Below, one piece after another: positions 11,129 to 22,499 of a DNA stretch of 27,644 bases. The stretch's first letter is position 1. Each line of letters starts with the position of its first letter. A model generated the notes under the pieces. That model saw only the letters and a list, made by a program, of their open reading frames with translations. It ran no database searches and was not told the DNA's origin. Position numbers and translations under genes: made by a program. Source of the stretch: Pseudomonadota bacterium (GTDB lineage Bacteria; Desulfobacterota; Syntrophobacteria; Syntrophobacterales; Syntrophobacteraceae); the NCBI GenBank assembly GCA_023416335.1, contig JAEZHY010000075.1:1-27644 (forward strand). The letters are read 5' to 3'.

Positions 11129-11347
11129 CTAGCAGCTTTCATCATCCTTCTGGACGTAGGATGCGCATTCCCTACAGGTAAATCCGCTCCACATTCCCTT
11201 GGCTGCTTTGTCCAGGCAATTGTCATAATTCGGACAGGCGAAATTGCGGACTCCTTTTCCTTCCTTGCACATCATGGGATACGGTGCATCCCTGTCCACT
11301 CTTTCGGGTTGAACCGGCTGTCCTCTGACACCTTTTTCCTTAGCCAT
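11129..11347 (-). CDS. Small six-cysteine protein of unknown function
   Basis: 72 residues. The ATG at 11347 is preceded by AAGGAG at good spacing, and a sigma70-like promoter lies about 100 nt upstream, so I regard it as a real gene. It is hydrophilic, has no signal peptide or membrane segment, and has cysteines at 27, 38, 44, 58, 61 and 72. The segment CPNYDNCLDKAAKGMWSGF followed by TCREC resembles small cysteine clusters I associate with uncharacterised Desulfobacterota proteins: a C-x5-C pair, an aromatic spacer, then CxxC. This suggests a zinc site (or less likely an Fe-S site). The gene stands alone between the ribosomal operon and an unknown membrane protein on the other strand. No function is assigned. 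Confidence 0.75.
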   Translation of the reverse strand: MAKEKGVRGQPVQPERVDRDAPYPMMCKEGKGVRNFACPNYDNCLDKAAKGMWSGFTCRECASYVQKDDESC

Positions 11348-14101: not shown

Positions 14102-14181
14102 TTTCCTTACTGCACACTGCTGATGATCGATTCTTGAGTCTGGTTCCAAACACAAGTACAACTGGAGGGAGGGGTACTGGC

Positions 14182-16206
14182 GTGCAAAGGAACGATTGTA
14201 GCTATCGAGCATCGATACATCACATTCTGCTTTACCTGCTGATGTTTTGCATCTTCTGCCTTTTCCGGCCAGCCTCGACTTTTGCTGAATTTATCAGTAT
14301 TGGCCCCGGCGGCGGTACAATAGGCTTTTTGGCCGTTGATCCAAAGACACCGCAGACCATCTATGCCGTAAGTGATTACTACGGAGTATATAAGAGTACC
14401 AATGGCGGCGCGAATTGGAATCCGCTCAATTCGGAATTTACAACTTATGTCCGGTCTCTGGCAATAGACCCTCTAAACTCTCAAACTATATATGCCATGA
14501 GCGGCGGCTGGATCTTGAAGAGTACCGATGGCGGAACATCCTGGGAGGGGCTCGGCAGCAGCTCTGATTTCCTGATTATCGACCCGACAAATTCTCAGAC
14601 CCTGTATTCCAGATCCAGATCCTCCGGTGTATCCAAGAGCACCGATGGCGGTATAACCTGGAGACGATTTGACATCTGGGCCAATTCTCTGGCCATTGAC
14701 CCTTCGAATTCTCAGATCATCTATGCAACATCAGATGACGGAGTATACAAGAGCAGCAGTGGCGGTACAGCTTGGGCCAAAATCAGCCAATCAGTTTTTC
14801 GCTGCAACTGGGATTCGAATCAGCTTGTTGTTGACCCTTCCAATCCTCAGACAATGTATGCCGGCCATGGTGACGGCATATACAAGAGCACCGATAGCGG
14901 TGCAACCTGGAACAAAATCAGCGACGGCCCGCAGAACATACTCGGGTTTGGTTATGGAATGGATTTCTTGACCCTTGATCCTCATAATCCCCAAACCATT
15001 TACACAGGGAATGCGGGCGGCTTAATAAGGAGCACCGACGGCGGACTAAACTGGAGCACGATAATCACAGAGACCCGCGTCAAATCCATAGCATTTGATC
15101 CCGTAGATCTCCAGACCATTTACATCGGAACAGATTTCGGGACTTACGGCCAAGGCGTGTTCAAGAGCACGAATGGCGGAACTGATTGGTGCCGGGTCAG
15201 CTCCGGGCTGAGGGGACTCTACACTACGGCTGTGGCGTTAGATTCAGGAAGTCCTCCGACCATTTACGCGGGAACCAGCGGCGGTGGTATATTCAGGAGC
15301 GATGACAACGGCGCAAACTGGACCCCGATAAATTCCGATATGACGAATTGGCTGGGTCTTTCTTCTTTTATCAACTGCCTGGTGATCGACCCGGTAAATA
15401 CCCAAATTATCTATGCAGGAACGCAAGTCGGCTTGTTCAAGAGTACCAATGCCGGTACAAGCTGGAACAGGCTCAGTCAGGGGTTTACAGAGCTGAACAT
15501 TCTTTCTCTTGCCATTGACCCTGCAGACCCTCGTATCATTTATGCCGGAACCGGCCAGGATGTGTTTCTATTTTTCCCATACGGCAGCAGCGGCGTTTTC
15601 AAAAGCACTGATGGCGGCGAGACCTGGAACAAGGCATCAGTGGACCAACACGAAAGCATCCAGGTCCTGTCGTTGGCAATCGCCCCAGGAAGTAATCGTG
15701 GTCAGACTCTATATGCCGCAACTTACGAGGGAGTATTGAAAAGCATTGACGGAGGCATGAATTGGAAGGTGGAAATCGCCGGCCCACAAGACGTTATGTG
15801 TCTGGCGGTGGACCCCACGACGGCAGAAACCGTCTACGCAGGGACTTATTCCGGTGTCTACAAAAGCGCCAATGGCGGAACGAGCTGGACAAATATCAGC
15901 TCGGATCTCCCAAACCAGGTCATAGTATCATTAATCATTGATCCACTTTCACCTCAAACCATCTTTGCAGGAAATCATCTAGGCCTTTTCAAAAAAAATA
16001 CAGGCAATACTGCTGCCTGGCACAGTGCAACCCCGAGTTTTCCAGACCCAGGGAAACCACCTCACATCGAACTACACCCCTCGATTTTTGCTTTCGCTCC
16101 CCACAATCCCCGATGTATTTACATCGGAACCGGAGACGGTTTATACGTGGACATTGAGAGGATTGATCTCTCACCAATACTGCAACTTCTCTCGGATGCA
16201 AAGTAA
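14182..16206 (+). CDS. Secreted protein with twelve Asp-box (BNR) repeats
   Basis: 674 residues from GTG 14182. This start is favoured by the exceptional ribosome binding site GGAGGGAGGGG seven bases upstream and because it places a signal peptide at the N-terminus: basic region (residues 1-13), hydrophobic core ILLYLLMFCIFCLF (15-28), and a likely cleavage site after TFA (residue 35). A TTG at 14134 is in frame but would bury the signal. The mature part has twelve copies of the Asp-box pattern S-x-D/N-x-G-x-x-W (for example YKSTNGGANW, LKSTDGGTSW, FKSTDGGETW), spaced about 40-55 residues apart and alternating with 'IDPxNxQTIYA' strands. This is the sequence form of sialidase-like or VPS10-like beta propellers, probably two of six to seven blades. 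No sialidase Arg triad or catalytic domain is evident, so a binding or structural role is likelier than hydrolysis. No anchor or sorting tail is visible. Confidence 0.88.
   Translation: MQRNDCSYRASIHHILLYLLMFCIFCLFRPASTFAEFISIGPGGGTIGFLAVDPKTPQTIYAVSDYYGVYKSTNGGANWNPLNSEFTTYVRSLAIDPLNSQTIYAMSGGWILKSTDGGTSWEGLGSSSDFLIIDPTNSQTLYSRSRSSGVSKSTDGGITWRRFDIWANSLAIDPSNSQIIYATSDDGVYKSSSGGTAWAKISQSVFRCNWDSNQLVVDPSNPQTMYAGHGDGIYKSTDSGATWNKISDGPQNILGFGYGMDFLTLDPHNPQTIYTGNAGGLIRSTDGGLNWSTIITETRVKSIAFDPVDLQTIYIGTDFGTYGQGVFKSTNGGTDWCRVSSGLRGLYTTAVALDSGSPPTIYAGTSGGGIFRSDDNGANWTPINSDMTNWLGLSSFINCLVIDPVNTQIIYAGTQVGLFKSTNAGTSWNRLSQGFTELNILSLAIDPADPRIIYAGTGQDVFLFFPYGSSGVFKSTDGGETWNKASVDQHESIQVLSLAIAPGSNRGQTLYAATYEGVLKSIDGGMNWKVEIAGPQDVMCLAVDPTTAETVYAGTYSGVYKSANGGTSWTNISSDLPNQVIVSLIIDPLSPQTIFAGNHLGLFKKNTGNTAAWHSATPSFPDPGKPPHIELHPSIFAFAPHNPRCIYIGTGDGLYVDIERIDLSPILQLLSDAK
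14390..15900 (+). repeat. Degenerate intragenic repeats encoding Asp-box blades
   Basis: Twelve imperfect copies of a motif close to AAGAGCACCGATGGCGG, each followed by a TGG codon, begin near 14390, 14517, 14634, 14751, 14883, 15030, 15162, 15297, 15441, 15600, 15738 and 15864. Spacing is about 115-160 nt. Codons for the motif vary between copies, so this is an old protein-level duplication and not a recent DNA tandem array. Confidence 0.75.
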
Positions 16207-18129: not shown

Positions 18130-18363
18130 ATGGAAATTCAAATCACCCTGACAGCAAAACTGCCTATTCAAATGAAGAGAAAAGCGAAGTGGTTTCCGGC
18201 GTCCTGCCCTGCACTGGATGTAGCCGGCCAAGGGGAAACCAGGGAAATAGCAACAAAGAATGTTGCTAAAGCACTCGGCTTGTTCCTGCGGTCATGTTTG
18301 GAGCAAGGGACACTGGATTTTTCGCCCCTAAATATGAATCTCCACGATGTCGCCGTCCTGTAA
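18130..18363 (+). CDS. Orphan HicB-like antitoxin-fold protein
   Basis: 77 residues, ATG preceded by AAAGGAG at good spacing. The sequence KRKAKWFPASCPALDVAGQGETREIATKNVAKALGLFLRSCLEQGTL (about residues 16-62) follows the HicB pattern: two beta strands containing W-x-A-x-C-P-x-L-D-V-x-x-Q-G, then a helix with A-x-x-N-x-x-x-A-L. In HicAB systems this partial RNase-H-like domain neutralises the HicA mRNA interferase. No HicA-like gene (small, dsRBD-fold, G-x-H) lies on either side, and there is no C-terminal DNA-binding domain. It may be a solitary regulator or the remnant of a lost pair. Its last 36 nt overlap the 3' end of the GTPase gene on the other strand. Confidence 0.7.
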   Translation: MEIQITLTAKLPIQMKRKAKWFPASCPALDVAGQGETREIATKNVAKALGLFLRSCLEQGTLDFSPLNMNLHDVAVL

Positions 18364-19314
18364 CACGTAATCCCTCTGAACCATCTGCCCGTTGAACACG
18401 GAAGTCCCCCACACCTTCGCGAATTTCAGCTTCATGACGAAATCCTTGTGGATTTCCTCGGCGAGGTCTTCGAGCCTGCTTTCCCGGGGCAGTACAAAAG
18501 GAGATTTCAGGTCGGGGTCTTTGCCGGGCGATTTGGTATAGACCCGGATGATTTCGGCCATAGCGTAGAGTTTTTTCAGGAATTCCCTCAGGTTGTATCC
18601 GGCACGGATGGAGAGGGGTATCGATGGAAGGGGCGCTTCACACAGATCGAGGAAAGCGAGGTAATCTTCCTCCATTGAGCTCGAATCCACCTTGTTCACC
18701 GCAAGCAATATCTTCTTTATGAAGGGCGCCTTCCTCAAATCCGCGGGGACCGGCATGCCGGGAGCATATATCCGAAGCCCGTTCAGAAAGGAAACGACAT
18801 CCTCGAGCTGCTGCAGCGGATCGCCCTGAATATCCACGACAGGGACGATAATGTCGGTGCGCCTGAGAAGATCCGTCAGTCCGGGGTCGATAAACTCCAT
18901 CGGAATGGGAGGAGTGTCGACAAGCTGGAACTGGACGTTTTCATAGTTTGCCATACCGGGAGTCGGTTTCCATGTCGAATGAGGGAAATCGGCGACCTCA
19001 GGCTTGGCGTTTGTCAGAGCAGCGACGATGGAAGATTTCCCGACGTTGGCCACTCCCAGGATTATGGCCTGTGCCGCTCCTTCCCTGTCGATGTTGTAAT
19101 TCGTATCGCGCTTTGCCGCCCCTTTTTTCTGCTGGGCTTCCGACTTGTGCTTTGCGATACGCTTACGCAGATCCGCCCTGAGCTTATCGGTGCCCTTGTG
19201 CTTGGGCATGATCGTAAGCATCTCTTCCAGGGCTTCGATCTTCTCTTCCGGGGTCCTCCCCTCCCTGTATCGCTTCTCGGCCTCAAAGTAAGGAGGCGGC
19301 AGATTGGCAGGCAT
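18328..19314 (-). CDS. DRG/Obg-type GTPase with C-terminal TGS domain
   Basis: 328 residues; ATG 19314 with AAGGAA upstream. Domain order: a charged N-terminal helical region (about 10-70, 'EKIEALEEMLTIMPKHKGTDKLRADLRKRIAK'), which is the DRG-like helix-turn-helix, then the GTPase core with G1 GVANVGKSS (87-95), G3 DTPP (133-136) and G4 NKVD (207-210), and a TGS domain from about residue 260 to the end ('VWGTSVFNGQMVQRDYVLQDGDIVEIHI'). The family binds GTP and is generally linked to ribosomes or translation. G3 has Pro where most P-loop GTPases have Gly (DxxG), which would affect gamma-phosphate sensing. The stop lies inside the hicB-like gene with no terminator between them. Confidence 0.88.
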   Translation of the reverse strand: MPANLPPPYFEAEKRYREGRTPEEKIEALEEMLTIMPKHKGTDKLRADLRKRIAKHKSEAQQKKGAAKRDTNYNIDREGAAQAIILGVANVGKSSIVAALTNAKPEVADFPHSTWKPTPGMANYENVQFQLVDTPPIPMEFIDPGLTDLLRRTDIIVPVVDIQGDPLQQLEDVVSFLNGLRIYAPGMPVPADLRKAPFIKKILLAVNKVDSSSMEEDYLAFLDLCEAPLPSIPLSIRAGYNLREFLKKLYAMAEIIRVYTKSPGKDPDLKSPFVLPRESRLEDLAEEIHKDFVMKLKFAKVWGTSVFNGQMVQRDYVLQDGDIVEIHI

Positions 19315-19466
19315 GACGGCACTTCCTTTTTCCGGCTTTCAGGCCGTGTCTGAGAGTTCGCCATGTTTTCGGAATTGAGGTAACGCTGTTCCGCGCTCTT
19401 CGGTGTTTTTCCGTTCAAAAGATCCGGATTGCCGGGATTCGCTCTTGCAGTTCGCGTCCAAAATCA

Positions 19467-19472
19467 ATTATA
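19467..19472 (-). promoter_or_regulatory. Possible -10 element for the GTPase gene
   Basis: Perfect TATAAT on the minus strand, about 155 nt upstream of the GTPase ATG. No good -35 element is visible at 16-18 nt, so this is weak evidence. Confidence 0.25.
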
Positions 19473-19526
19473 GAAGGGGTTTGCACCTGCTCGCCAGTTC
19501 CAATGGTAGTGTGTTCCACGACTCGT

Positions 19527-19532
19527 TATACT
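19527..19532 (+). promoter_or_regulatory. Possible -10 element for the dual-CXXC selenoprotein candidate
   Basis: TATACT (5 of 6) lies 18 nt before the start codon and only a few bases before the ribosome binding site AGGAGG (19539-19544). No clear -35. If used, transcription would start close to the ribosome binding site, so a promoter further upstream is equally possible. Confidence 0.2.
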
Positions 19533-19550
19533 TGACCCAGGAGGACCCAA

Positions 19551-19718
19551 TTGATCTGTGAAAAATGCAAGCAGGAACTCGTCATCGTCAGAACGTGACG
19601 GAAAGTCTACCTGCGCTGCCGGGAATGCGGCGCAACGTACAACCTGATGGATTACCGTGAAGAACTCACGGATGAGCTTGAAAAGGAATTATCGTTCTGC
19701 AGAGCGGACATGATCTGA
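19551..19718 (+). CDS. Dual-CXXC small protein with in-frame UGA, candidate selenoprotein
   Basis: Fifty-five codons are read from TTG 19551 to TGA 19716-19718, through an in-frame TGA at 19596-19598 (codon 16). Ribosome binding site AGGAGG sits six bases before TTG. The product is MICEKCKQELVIVRT-U-RKVYLRCRECGATYNLMD and onward to SFCRADMI: a CxxC at residues 3/6, a second CxxC at 23/26, U at 16, then an acidic helix (about 35-47). Small proteins of this layout are known from anaerobic delta-type bacteria; from memory, public annotation uses the name 'dual CXXC motif small (seleno)protein' for a family with Cys or Sec in the central position. Coding character continues past the TGA (the second CxxC and the acidic helix are in frame), and a SECIS-like hairpin follows. 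Standard gene callers would miss it or split it. The alternative is a pseudogene with a nonsense mutation. The role is unknown; zinc or redox chemistry is likely. Confidence 0.8.
19596..19639 (+). promoter_or_regulatory. UGA codon and bacterial SECIS-like hairpin
   Basis: The UGA at 19596-19598 is followed 13 nt later by TGCGCTGC (19612-19619), which pairs over 8 bp (one G-U) with GCGGCGCA (19627-19634). The apical loop is the 7-nt CGGGAAT with G in its second position. A lower helix TAC/GTA (19608-19610 with 19637-19639) adds three pairs. The loop begins 22 nt after the UGA, within the 16-37 nt window known for SelB-dependent insertion in bacteria. Confidence 0.7.
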
Positions 19719-19733
19719 CCTGCAGTAAATCAT

Positions 19734-19769
19734 AAAAAAGGACCGGGCAATGAGCCCCGGTCCTTTTTT
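19734..19769. terminator. Bidirectional intrinsic terminator
   Basis: AAAAAAGGACCGGG pairs with CCCGGTCCTTTTTT over 14 bp around an 8-nt loop. It lies 15 nt after the dual-CXXC gene (+) and 3 nt after the alaS stop (-), and has A and T tracts on both sides, so it can serve both convergent transcripts. Confidence 0.93.
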
Positions 19770-19772
19770 CGT

Positions 19773-22433
19773 CTATGCGAGTTTCTCGCGAATCAGTTTT
19801 TCGGCAAGGCCGAGCGCATTTTCGAGCTTATCGGGGTCGTTTCCGCCCGCCTGGGCCATATCGGGCCTTCCGCCGCCGCTTCCTCCCACTTCCTTCACAA
19901 TCTCCTTAATGAGATTTCCGGCGTGGATCTTCGAGGTAAGTTCGGGCGTCACCCCGGCAAGGAGGAAAACCTTTCCTTCGGAGACCGCGCCGAAGACAGC
20001 CACACCACGGGCAAATTTTTCCTTGAACTTATCGTTTACCTCTCTGAGGACCTTCGGATTATCCGCATCGATCTGCGCGACGAGTACCTGAGCACCGCCC
20101 ACTTCAACGGTTTTCTCGAAAAGATCGGCCGAGCGCCTGCCGGCAAGGGATGCCTTCAGCGCTTCCAGTTCTTTTTCCGTCTGCCGTTCCTGTACCAGCA
20201 GCTTCTCGATTCTGTCCGGCAATTCGGAAGGCGCAACCTTGAGCACCGACGCGGCGCGCTCGATCAGTTTTCTCTGACGGTTGACGAAGGCCACCGCCTC
20301 CCTGCCCGCAAGGGCTTCGATTCTTCTTACGCCCGAGGCGATGCTGGCCTCCTGAACGATGATAAAAAGCCCGAGATCCCCCGTTCTGCGGCTGTGGGTC
20401 CCGCCGCAAAGTTCACGGCTGAAGCCGGGGATTTCCACCATTCGGACACGATCGCCGTATTTTTCTTCGAACAGCGCCATTGCCCCGGTCTTGAGAGCCT
20501 CCTCGAGATCCATCACATGGGTCTGCAGGTCCTGGTTCGCGCGGATTTCATCGTTTACCAGCTGCTCGATCCGGTCCATTTCTTCCGGGCTTATCGCTCC
20601 GAAATGCGTAAAGTCGAACCGCATCCGATCGGGCGCTACAAGCGATCCAGCCTGCTTAACGTGGTCGCCGAGTACTTTTCGGAGGACCGCGTGCAGAATG
20701 TGGGTAGCGGTATGGTGTACTTCCGTGTCCCGGCGAAGCTGCCCGTCAACGGCAAGGCGCACCGTATCGCCTGCATGGAATACTCCGGATTCGACTTTAC
20801 CGACGTGAACTATCAAGTCTCCCGGAAGCTTTATCGTATCGCTGACGGTCATTCTTCCCGAAGGGCCGGTTATGACGCCCCGGTCTCCGACCTGTCCGCC
20901 TGCGGCCCCATAAAAGGGCGTGCGTTCGACGACCAACTCGACTGCGGTTCCTTCCCCCGCGGTCCCGACTTCTTCGCCCCCGAGCACCATGGCAACAATC
21001 TGCGATTCGCCTTCCAGCGTTTCATACCCGATGAACGTGCTCCTGACTCCCCGGGTGGATAGCTGGCGGTAGGCCTCCGAAATCTCCCGCTCGCCGCTTC
21101 CCTTCCAGTGAGCGCGCGACTGCTCGCGCTGTTTTTCCATGAGTTCCTGGAACCCGAGTTCATCGGCGCCGAATCCGAGTTCGCGGGACATATCGGTCAC
21201 GATATCGATCGGGAATCCATACGTATCGTACAGCTTAAAAATGAGCGCCCCGGGGACGGTATCCGCATTTTCGTCCTGCAGGCGCTTGATTTCGTTTTGA
21301 AGCAGACGCAACCCGTTGTCGAGTGTCTCGTTGAAGCGCTCCTCTTCATTCAGGATCACGCGGGTGATAAAGCTGCGATTTTCGAGCAGTTCCGGATAGG
21401 CATCCTGCATGGATTCCATAACGGATACGGCAACTTCACTGAGGAATGGCTTGTCGAGGCCGAGGAAACGGCCGTGCCTGAGCGCACGCCGCAGTACGCG
21501 CCTGAGGACATATCCACGCCCTTCATTGCTCGGAAGTGCCCCGTCGCCGATCAGGAAAGCCGCGGCCCGGCTGTGATCGGCAATGACCTTCACTGAAACG
21601 TCTTTTTCTGCATTGGTGCCGTACCGGTAGCCACTCAGCTCCTCGATCTTCTCCATCATGGGACTGAAAAGGTCCGTATCGTAATTCGAAGGGACCTTCT
21701 GGATAACCGCGGCAATTCTTTCCAGCCCCATGCCGGTATCGATGCTCGGCTTGGGAAGGGGTTCCAGCACGCCGTCATCCCGGCGGTTGAACTGCATGAA
21801 AACGAGATTCCACAGCTCCAGGTACCGGTCGCAGTCGCAGCCCGGAGCACAATCCGGCTTCCCGCATCCCATGGCGGGTCCCTGGTCGATCAGGATTTCC
21901 GAACATGGTCCGCAGGGCCCGGTATCGCCCATGGACCAGAAGTTGTCTTTCGTCGGGAATGCGAGAATCCGTTCCTCGGGAAGGTAGCGAGCCCAATACC
22001 CACGCGCTTCCTCATCAGCACCGAGGTTCATCGAGGGCTCGCCCTCGTGAATCGTGGCGTAAAGCTTGTCCTTCGGCAAGCCGAGGACGTCCGTCAGGAA
22101 CACCCACGCAAACTCGACCGCGTCCTTTTTGAAATAATCGCCGAACGAGAAATTCCCGAGCATCTCGAAAAAAGTATGATGGCGCGCCGTGCGGCCGACG
22201 TTTTCGAGGTCATTGTGCTTGCCTCCCGCCCTCATGCATTTCTGGCTGGTGGTCGCACGATTGTAGGACCGCTTCTCCTCCCCCAGGAAAGTCCTCTTGA
22301 ACTGAACCATTCCCGCGTTTGTAAAAAGCAGACTGGGATCGTCGTGTGGAATGACGGAGGAACTCTTTACAATCGTATGACCCCGTTCCTGAAAAAACTC
22401 CAGAAAGGCCTTCCGAATCTCGCTGGCTTTCAT
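19773..22433 (-). CDS. alaS: Alanine--tRNA ligase
   Basis: 886 residues from ATG 22433 (a TTG directly before it, at 22436, is also possible because AGGAG is spaced 7-10 nt from both). Charges tRNA-Ala in the cytoplasm. The class II catalytic core opens MKASEIRKAFLEFFQERGH and has motif 1 'SLLFTNAGMVQFKRTFLGEEKR' and 'KCMRAGGKHNDLENVGRTARHHTFFEMLGNFSFGDYFK'. The editing domain, which clears Ser- and Gly-tRNA-Ala, keeps HHTATHILHAVL (near residue 570) and the zinc-site CGGTH (near 670). The C-terminal C-Ala region includes 'GGSGGGRPDMAQAGG' near 840-860. Length is typical (870-890). Confidence 0.98.
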   Translation of the reverse strand: MKASEIRKAFLEFFQERGHTIVKSSSVIPHDDPSLLFTNAGMVQFKRTFLGEEKRSYNRATTSQKCMRAGGKHNDLENVGRTARHHTFFEMLGNFSFGDYFKKDAVEFAWVFLTDVLGLPKDKLYATIHEGEPSMNLGADEEARGYWARYLPEERILAFPTKDNFWSMGDTGPCGPCSEILIDQGPAMGCGKPDCAPGCDCDRYLELWNLVFMQFNRRDDGVLEPLPKPSIDTGMGLERIAAVIQKVPSNYDTDLFSPMMEKIEELSGYRYGTNAEKDVSVKVIADHSRAAAFLIGDGALPSNEGRGYVLRRVLRRALRHGRFLGLDKPFLSEVAVSVMESMQDAYPELLENRSFITRVILNEEERFNETLDNGLRLLQNEIKRLQDENADTVPGALIFKLYDTYGFPIDIVTDMSRELGFGADELGFQELMEKQREQSRAHWKGSGEREISEAYRQLSTRGVRSTFIGYETLEGESQIVAMVLGGEEVGTAGEGTAVELVVERTPFYGAAGGQVGDRGVITGPSGRMTVSDTIKLPGDLIVHVGKVESGVFHAGDTVRLAVDGQLRRDTEVHHTATHILHAVLRKVLGDHVKQAGSLVAPDRMRFDFTHFGAISPEEMDRIEQLVNDEIRANQDLQTHVMDLEEALKTGAMALFEEKYGDRVRMVEIPGFSRELCGGTHSRRTGDLGLFIIVQEASIASGVRRIEALAGREAVAFVNRQRKLIERAASVLKVAPSELPDRIEKLLVQERQTEKELEALKASLAGRRSADLFEKTVEVGGAQVLVAQIDADNPKVLREVNDKFKEKFARGVAVFGAVSEGKVFLLAGVTPELTSKIHAGNLIKEIVKEVGGSGGGRPDMAQAGGNDPDKLENALGLAEKLIREKLA

Positions 22434-22499
22434 CAATTAAGATCTCCTGAAACGACAATTTACGTAAATGCAATTCACTGCTCGGCTCACCGCCGGACT

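Follow-up and report, generated by a model that had tools for sequence, protein, structure and literature searches.

Contig JAEZHY010000075.1 (assembly GCA_023416335.1), from a bacterium of the Syntrophobacteraceae, was analysed over positions 1 to 27,644, and this whole stretch of 27,644 nucleotides is referred to here as the window. At 19551-19718 (stop included) on the plus strand it contains a dual-CxxC gene of 55 residues that very probably encodes a selenoprotein. The coding frame runs from a TTG start at 19551 to 19715 and ends with a TGA at 19716-19718, as confirmed by a script check of the sequence. A ribosome-binding site, AGGAGG, is located on the same strand at 19539-19544, 6 nt upstream of the TTG. 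In two related loci (L001 and L002) a TTG is likewise found two codons ahead of the first cysteine (Cys). The first CxxC knuckle comprises residues 3-6 (19557-19568, plus strand), for which zinc binding is inferred, and the second residues 23-26 (19617-19628, plus strand). Codon 16 between them is an in-frame TGA (19596-19598, plus strand), giving the motif R-T-U-R if read as selenocysteine (Sec, U). The Cys/Sec set of the peptide is C3, C6, U16, C23 and C26, with an additional Cys at residue 50. The extent of the gene is supported by its family score, by homologues and by a proportion of nonsynonymous differences (pN) below that of synonymous differences (pS). An earlier reading made from the letters alone (the sequence-only reading) had proposed this start with a strong AGGAGG site, both CxxC motifs, the TGA and the stop, and these matched base for base.

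Past the UGA, a hairpin of the bacterial Sec insertion sequence (SECIS) type can be folded at 19612-19634 on the plus strand. Its stem (19612-19619/19627-19634) consists of 8 pairs including one G-U, and the 7-nt loop (19620-19626, CGGGAAT) shows a G in position 2. The hairpin starts 13 nt past the UGA; 21 nt separate the UGA from the first base of the loop, which accordingly begins at +22. Stem and loop overlap with the codons of the second CxxC knuckle. A script reproduced the hairpin in the form that had been claimed for it.

When the peptide was queried with the TGA read through, it matched the NCBIfam family NF041197 ('dual CXXC motif small (seleno)protein', CxxC_Se_CxxC) with 60.7 bits over profile positions 1-52 of 53, the curated cut-off being 40 bits. 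No Pfam match of the peptide above a cut-off was obtained. A 2026 review (PMC13188914) enters NF041197 as 'Dual CXXC motif small protein (hypothetical protein OS_HP3)' with the motif RxU and cites Zhang and Gladyshev 2007 for it; OS_HP3 also appears in PMC9312934. The RxU motif is present in the window peptide as R14-T15-U16. The dual-CxxC gene is a new sequence within this published selenoprotein family and not a new selenoprotein family, NF041197 and OS_HP3 being already catalogued. In the nearest named genome found the protein is 64-65% identical, and 38 of 53 positions are identical to the form in genome G043. The columns of C3, C6, U16 (Cys or Sec), C23 and C26 are invariant across 13 aligned members. 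The sequence-only reading had expected automatic annotation to miss the gene. This holds for JGI, where the sole database proteins found when searching with the window peptide are fragments of 38 and 35 residues (P0002 and P0003) starting after the UGA, but not for the current NCBI model, which matches once the TGA is read through.

We compared forms of the gene with TGA and with Cys in two sets of genomes. In the class to which G002 belongs, 45 of 55 genomes match the family, and exactly one TGA was present in all 47 places listed. In a draw of 395 genomes from the phylum, with scoring limited to 16 candidates per genome, 112 match the family. Among the places over the cut-off in this draw, 26 stop-free ones reach profile position 51 or beyond, and in all 26, each read as sequence, a Cys stands exactly at the UGA column. 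One further stop-free place over the cut-off, in G411, covers profile positions 17-53 only, the remaining places over the cut-off there having one TGA; a weak place below the cut-off in G099 has two. For places whose sequence was not fetched these figures are stop counts, the residue-16 column being seen in fetched loci only. Every locus whose sequence was read has either TGA or Cys at residue 16. Downstream of the TGA, pN was lower than pS against seven of seven relatives, with changes mostly at third positions; in several of these pairs the silent sites approach saturation. The coding character beyond the TGA proposed from the sequence alone is borne out by this constraint.

The sequence-only reading had also suggested a search for the Sec genes in the same genome. 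The analysis covered four relatives instead, and selA, selB, selD and tRNA-Sec were found in all of them (G043, G040, G001 and G002). The closest genome by alanyl-tRNA synthetase (84%) is G043, which itself carries a TGA form. The tRNA-Sec genes scored 73-75 bits with the family model and have the anticodon TCA according to ARAGORN in 4/4 relatives; we rely on the score together with ARAGORN, since the family model also matches controls weakly. In each of the four relatives selD exceeds the cut-off in two or three copies, and every copy itself carries an in-frame TGA. Five genomes of the class were noted to have a second selB-like gene that is full-length and likewise exceeds its cut-off.

Several observations weigh against reading UGA16 as Sec. 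Taken as a single sequence the hairpin is ordinary for its base composition: z was about -1 in each of three framings, where its energy was reached by 24, 33 and 29 of 200 dinucleotide shuffles. In four of the 55 class genomes (G003, G005, G046 and G052) selB stays below the cut-off, all four having a TGA form; this shortfall may reflect assembly gaps. Together with the two database entries that start only after the TGA, the ordinary folding energy would fit a true stop at UGA16, followed by a decayed or chance frame and an incidental hairpin. None of 100 codon-order shuffles equalled the window hairpin. That the hairpin exceeds chance is concluded from the relatives, not from the single-sequence fold. 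For the first copy, the hairpin energies of 58 unique Sec rows averaged -9.7 kcal/mol and those of 25 unique Cys rows -3.4 kcal/mol (p 1.1e-8 by Mann-Whitney test, a value made optimistic by the relatedness of the rows). A G within the first two loop positions was found in 45/46 first-copy Sec loci compared with 10/18 Cys loci, and in a second copy of the gene, described below, in 17/17 compared with 0/2. Stem pairs 16-32, 17-31 and 18-30 are formed in 49, 51 and 53 of 59 Sec rows versus 5, 9 and 15 of 26 Cys rows. There is little contrast for pairs 14-34 and 15-33 (37 and 35 of 59 versus 10 and 12 of 26) and none for pair 13-35 (36/59 versus 18/26), while the innermost two pairs are set by the Cys codons in Sec and Cys forms alike.

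Hairpin strength thus goes with the TGA forms, and this, the single TGA in every place listed for the class, the low pN in seven of seven comparisons and the exact Cys replacement argue strongly against a true stop, which we regard as highly improbable. Two findings speak for reading UGA16 as Sec: past the TGA the frame is still constrained at the protein level, and Cys occupies that position in relatives. By this comparison of sequences we put the probability that the window gene encodes a selenoprotein at roughly 95%, a figure that refers to its identity and excludes its biochemical role. SelB and tRNA-Sec would read UGA16 as Sec, directed by the downstream hairpin. The selenoprotein interpretation of the sequence-only reading, including its claim that Sec replaces the Cys of relatives, is supported by the family match, the exact Cys column and the hairpin contrast. 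Of the three results that this reading had named as refuting it, none was encountered in the loci and relatives covered. A true selenoprotein can evidently be spotted by reading raw sequence without tools.

A quickly built tree of 102 unique members required at least four changes between Sec and Cys, though many of its branches are unsupported. Loss of the Sec machinery was considered as the cause of Cys forms and rejected: selB exceeded the cut-off in all 50 genomes tested, 26 of them with a Cys form. As both forms occur in selB-bearing genomes, the family is well suited to testing what a very small protein gains from selenium. A Cys form at L099 (5988-6143) groups with the TGA form L104 (Shimodaira-Hasegawa-like approximate likelihood ratio test 80). 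At the SECIS place it shows a hairpin of -7.1 kcal/mol, equalled by 14 of 100 codon shuffles, which is perhaps a relic of a recent change from Sec to Cys.

Many genomes have a second copy of GxU type, often alongside the RxU copy (L127-L145 except L132 and L139). In the family tree this copy occupies a long branch of its own. It did not reach the NF041197 cut-off when genomes were scanned, whereas three of three of its Sec peptides scanned alone were just above that value. A Cys form of the first copy occurs together with a TGA form of the second in G307, G398, G416 and G196, and the reverse pairing of a TGA form with a Cys second copy in G091 and G429. Hypothetical protein DW (deep-Sep, PMC12013277) is entered as GxU under NF041197 in PMC13188914, and the second copy probably corresponds to it, a match based on the GxU motif given in the table of that review and not on the DW sequence. 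In five loci the GxU copy is followed 28-32 nt downstream by a dnaX-like gene recognised by eye. Cys forms ending in IIYD lie 3-35 nt after a pyrE-like gene, also recognised by eye, in six loci (L095, L096, L098, L100, L101 and L106). As general partners both genes were rejected, these being local patterns that do not generalise.

In the window the selenoprotein gene stands alone. Upstream, on the minus strand and divergent from it, lies a gene for an Obg-like GTPase (18328-19314) assigned by weak matches only. Downstream, also on the minus strand and convergent with it, lies alaS (19773-22436). A near-symmetric terminator-like hairpin between the convergent genes, assigned to neither strand (19734-19769), is common to both; it folds with -22.2 kcal/mol (z -5.4), and none of 200 shuffles folded as well. 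No sigma-70-type promoter was found in a scan of 19250-19850. The surroundings were compared over 83 loci, comprising 80 regions selected by us among the places from the class and phylum scans, the window, L001 and L002. The alaS cluster recurs in 14 and the GTPase cluster in 10 of them, always on the opposite strand, which therefore indicates conserved gene order and not an operon. Among 44 same-strand neighbours within 80 nt, 20 were scanned, yielding 16 with families and 4 without. These families vary by lineage and include SPOUT methyltransferase, pseudouridine synthase, semialdehyde dehydrogenase and acyl transferase, as well as topoisomerase, aconitase, Mrp-like ATPase and others. Across the 83 loci no gene emerged as a constant partner on the same strand, and the neighbourhood is therefore not informative on function. 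Elsewhere in the window we noted a cysteine-rich frame of 72 residues without an NCBIfam match (11129-11347, minus strand) and a repeat protein of 690 residues (14134-16206, plus strand) with nine stretches matching the F510_1955 family glycosylhydrolase model.

A text search of a limited literature yielded no published function for NF041197 or OS_HP3. The structure model of the protein is ribbon-like (predicted local distance difference test score 72), with strands at residues 9-15 and 18-23. The two CxxC pairs are placed at the base of this beta-hairpin and residue 16 at its turn, where it is mostly flanked by Arg or Lys. Foldseek gave the small zinc-finger protein ZifS as a weak first match. 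VIA-align returned mostly ribbons of RNA-polymerase chain I, which we take to be of RPB9 type, and of topoisomerases, all of them weak. As a best guess, the protein would be a zinc ribbon that exposes a selenol at the tip of its beta-hairpin. Motif and model together suggest that one metal ion, probably zinc, is held by the two CxxC knuckles in an RPB9-type ribbon, with Sec at the turn away from the metal site. In most members the selenolate could pair with a Cys near the C-terminus (Cys50 in the window protein), such a Cys being present in 45 of 58 unique Sec forms; the other members would depend on a thiol partner from outside. Since 13 of the 58 unique Sec forms are without this Cys, its action as a resolving residue was rejected as the general mechanism. 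It is possible, and we propose it tentatively, that the exposed selenolate serves as a reactive redox or electrophile-binding group.

Two other assignments of residue 16 within a selenoprotein were weighed. HypA has a nickel-binding part besides its zinc ribbon, and the protein might act as a metal or metalloid carrier or sensor with residue 16 as a ligand in a HypA-like Cys/Sec site. The five invariant Cys/Sec columns would suit such a site, as would weak matches to the HypA profile (E 0.0014, far under the cut-off of that model) and to the structure 3a43 (E 0.00075). The model, which separates residue 16 from the CxxC pairs, and the finding of no constant same-strand neighbour over the loci compared speak against it, and we hold this role to be unlikely. 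Alternatively, a zinc ribbon binding nucleic acid or a polymerase could deliver the reactive Sec at its tip to a macromolecule. This would be in line with the weak polymerase and topoisomerase resemblances, the Arg or Lys around the tip and the JGI label RNA polymerase subunit M/TFIIS on some Cys forms, and we consider it a rather improbable role. TFIIS-type ribbons have catalytic acidic residues at the tip of their beta-hairpin. One could imagine that the 'finger' inserts a single catalytic tip selenol into a partner, e.g. a polymerase or another nucleic-acid enzyme, the selenol taking the place of those acidic residues. We mention this combined proposal as a speculation that is very unlikely to be correct.

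Compared with NF041197/OS_HP3, the window protein has the same length, the two CxxC motifs, the Sec column and RxU; there is no difference in kind, only a new sequence. The family, for which no described function was found and whose members are cut short at the UGA by some pipelines, gains one more member. Hypothetical protein DW shares the layout of two CxxC motifs and Sec, but has GxU and another C-terminus where the window protein has RxU. RPB9-type zinc ribbons show a weak fold resemblance to residues 1-42. The zinc ribbon of HypA (PDB 3a43) and E. coli YfgJ (2jne) have the same CxxC zinc-ribbon layout and were matched weakly at the profile level; HypA is longer, with 139 residues in 3a43, and unlike the family of the window protein neither HypA nor YfgJ has a Sec column.
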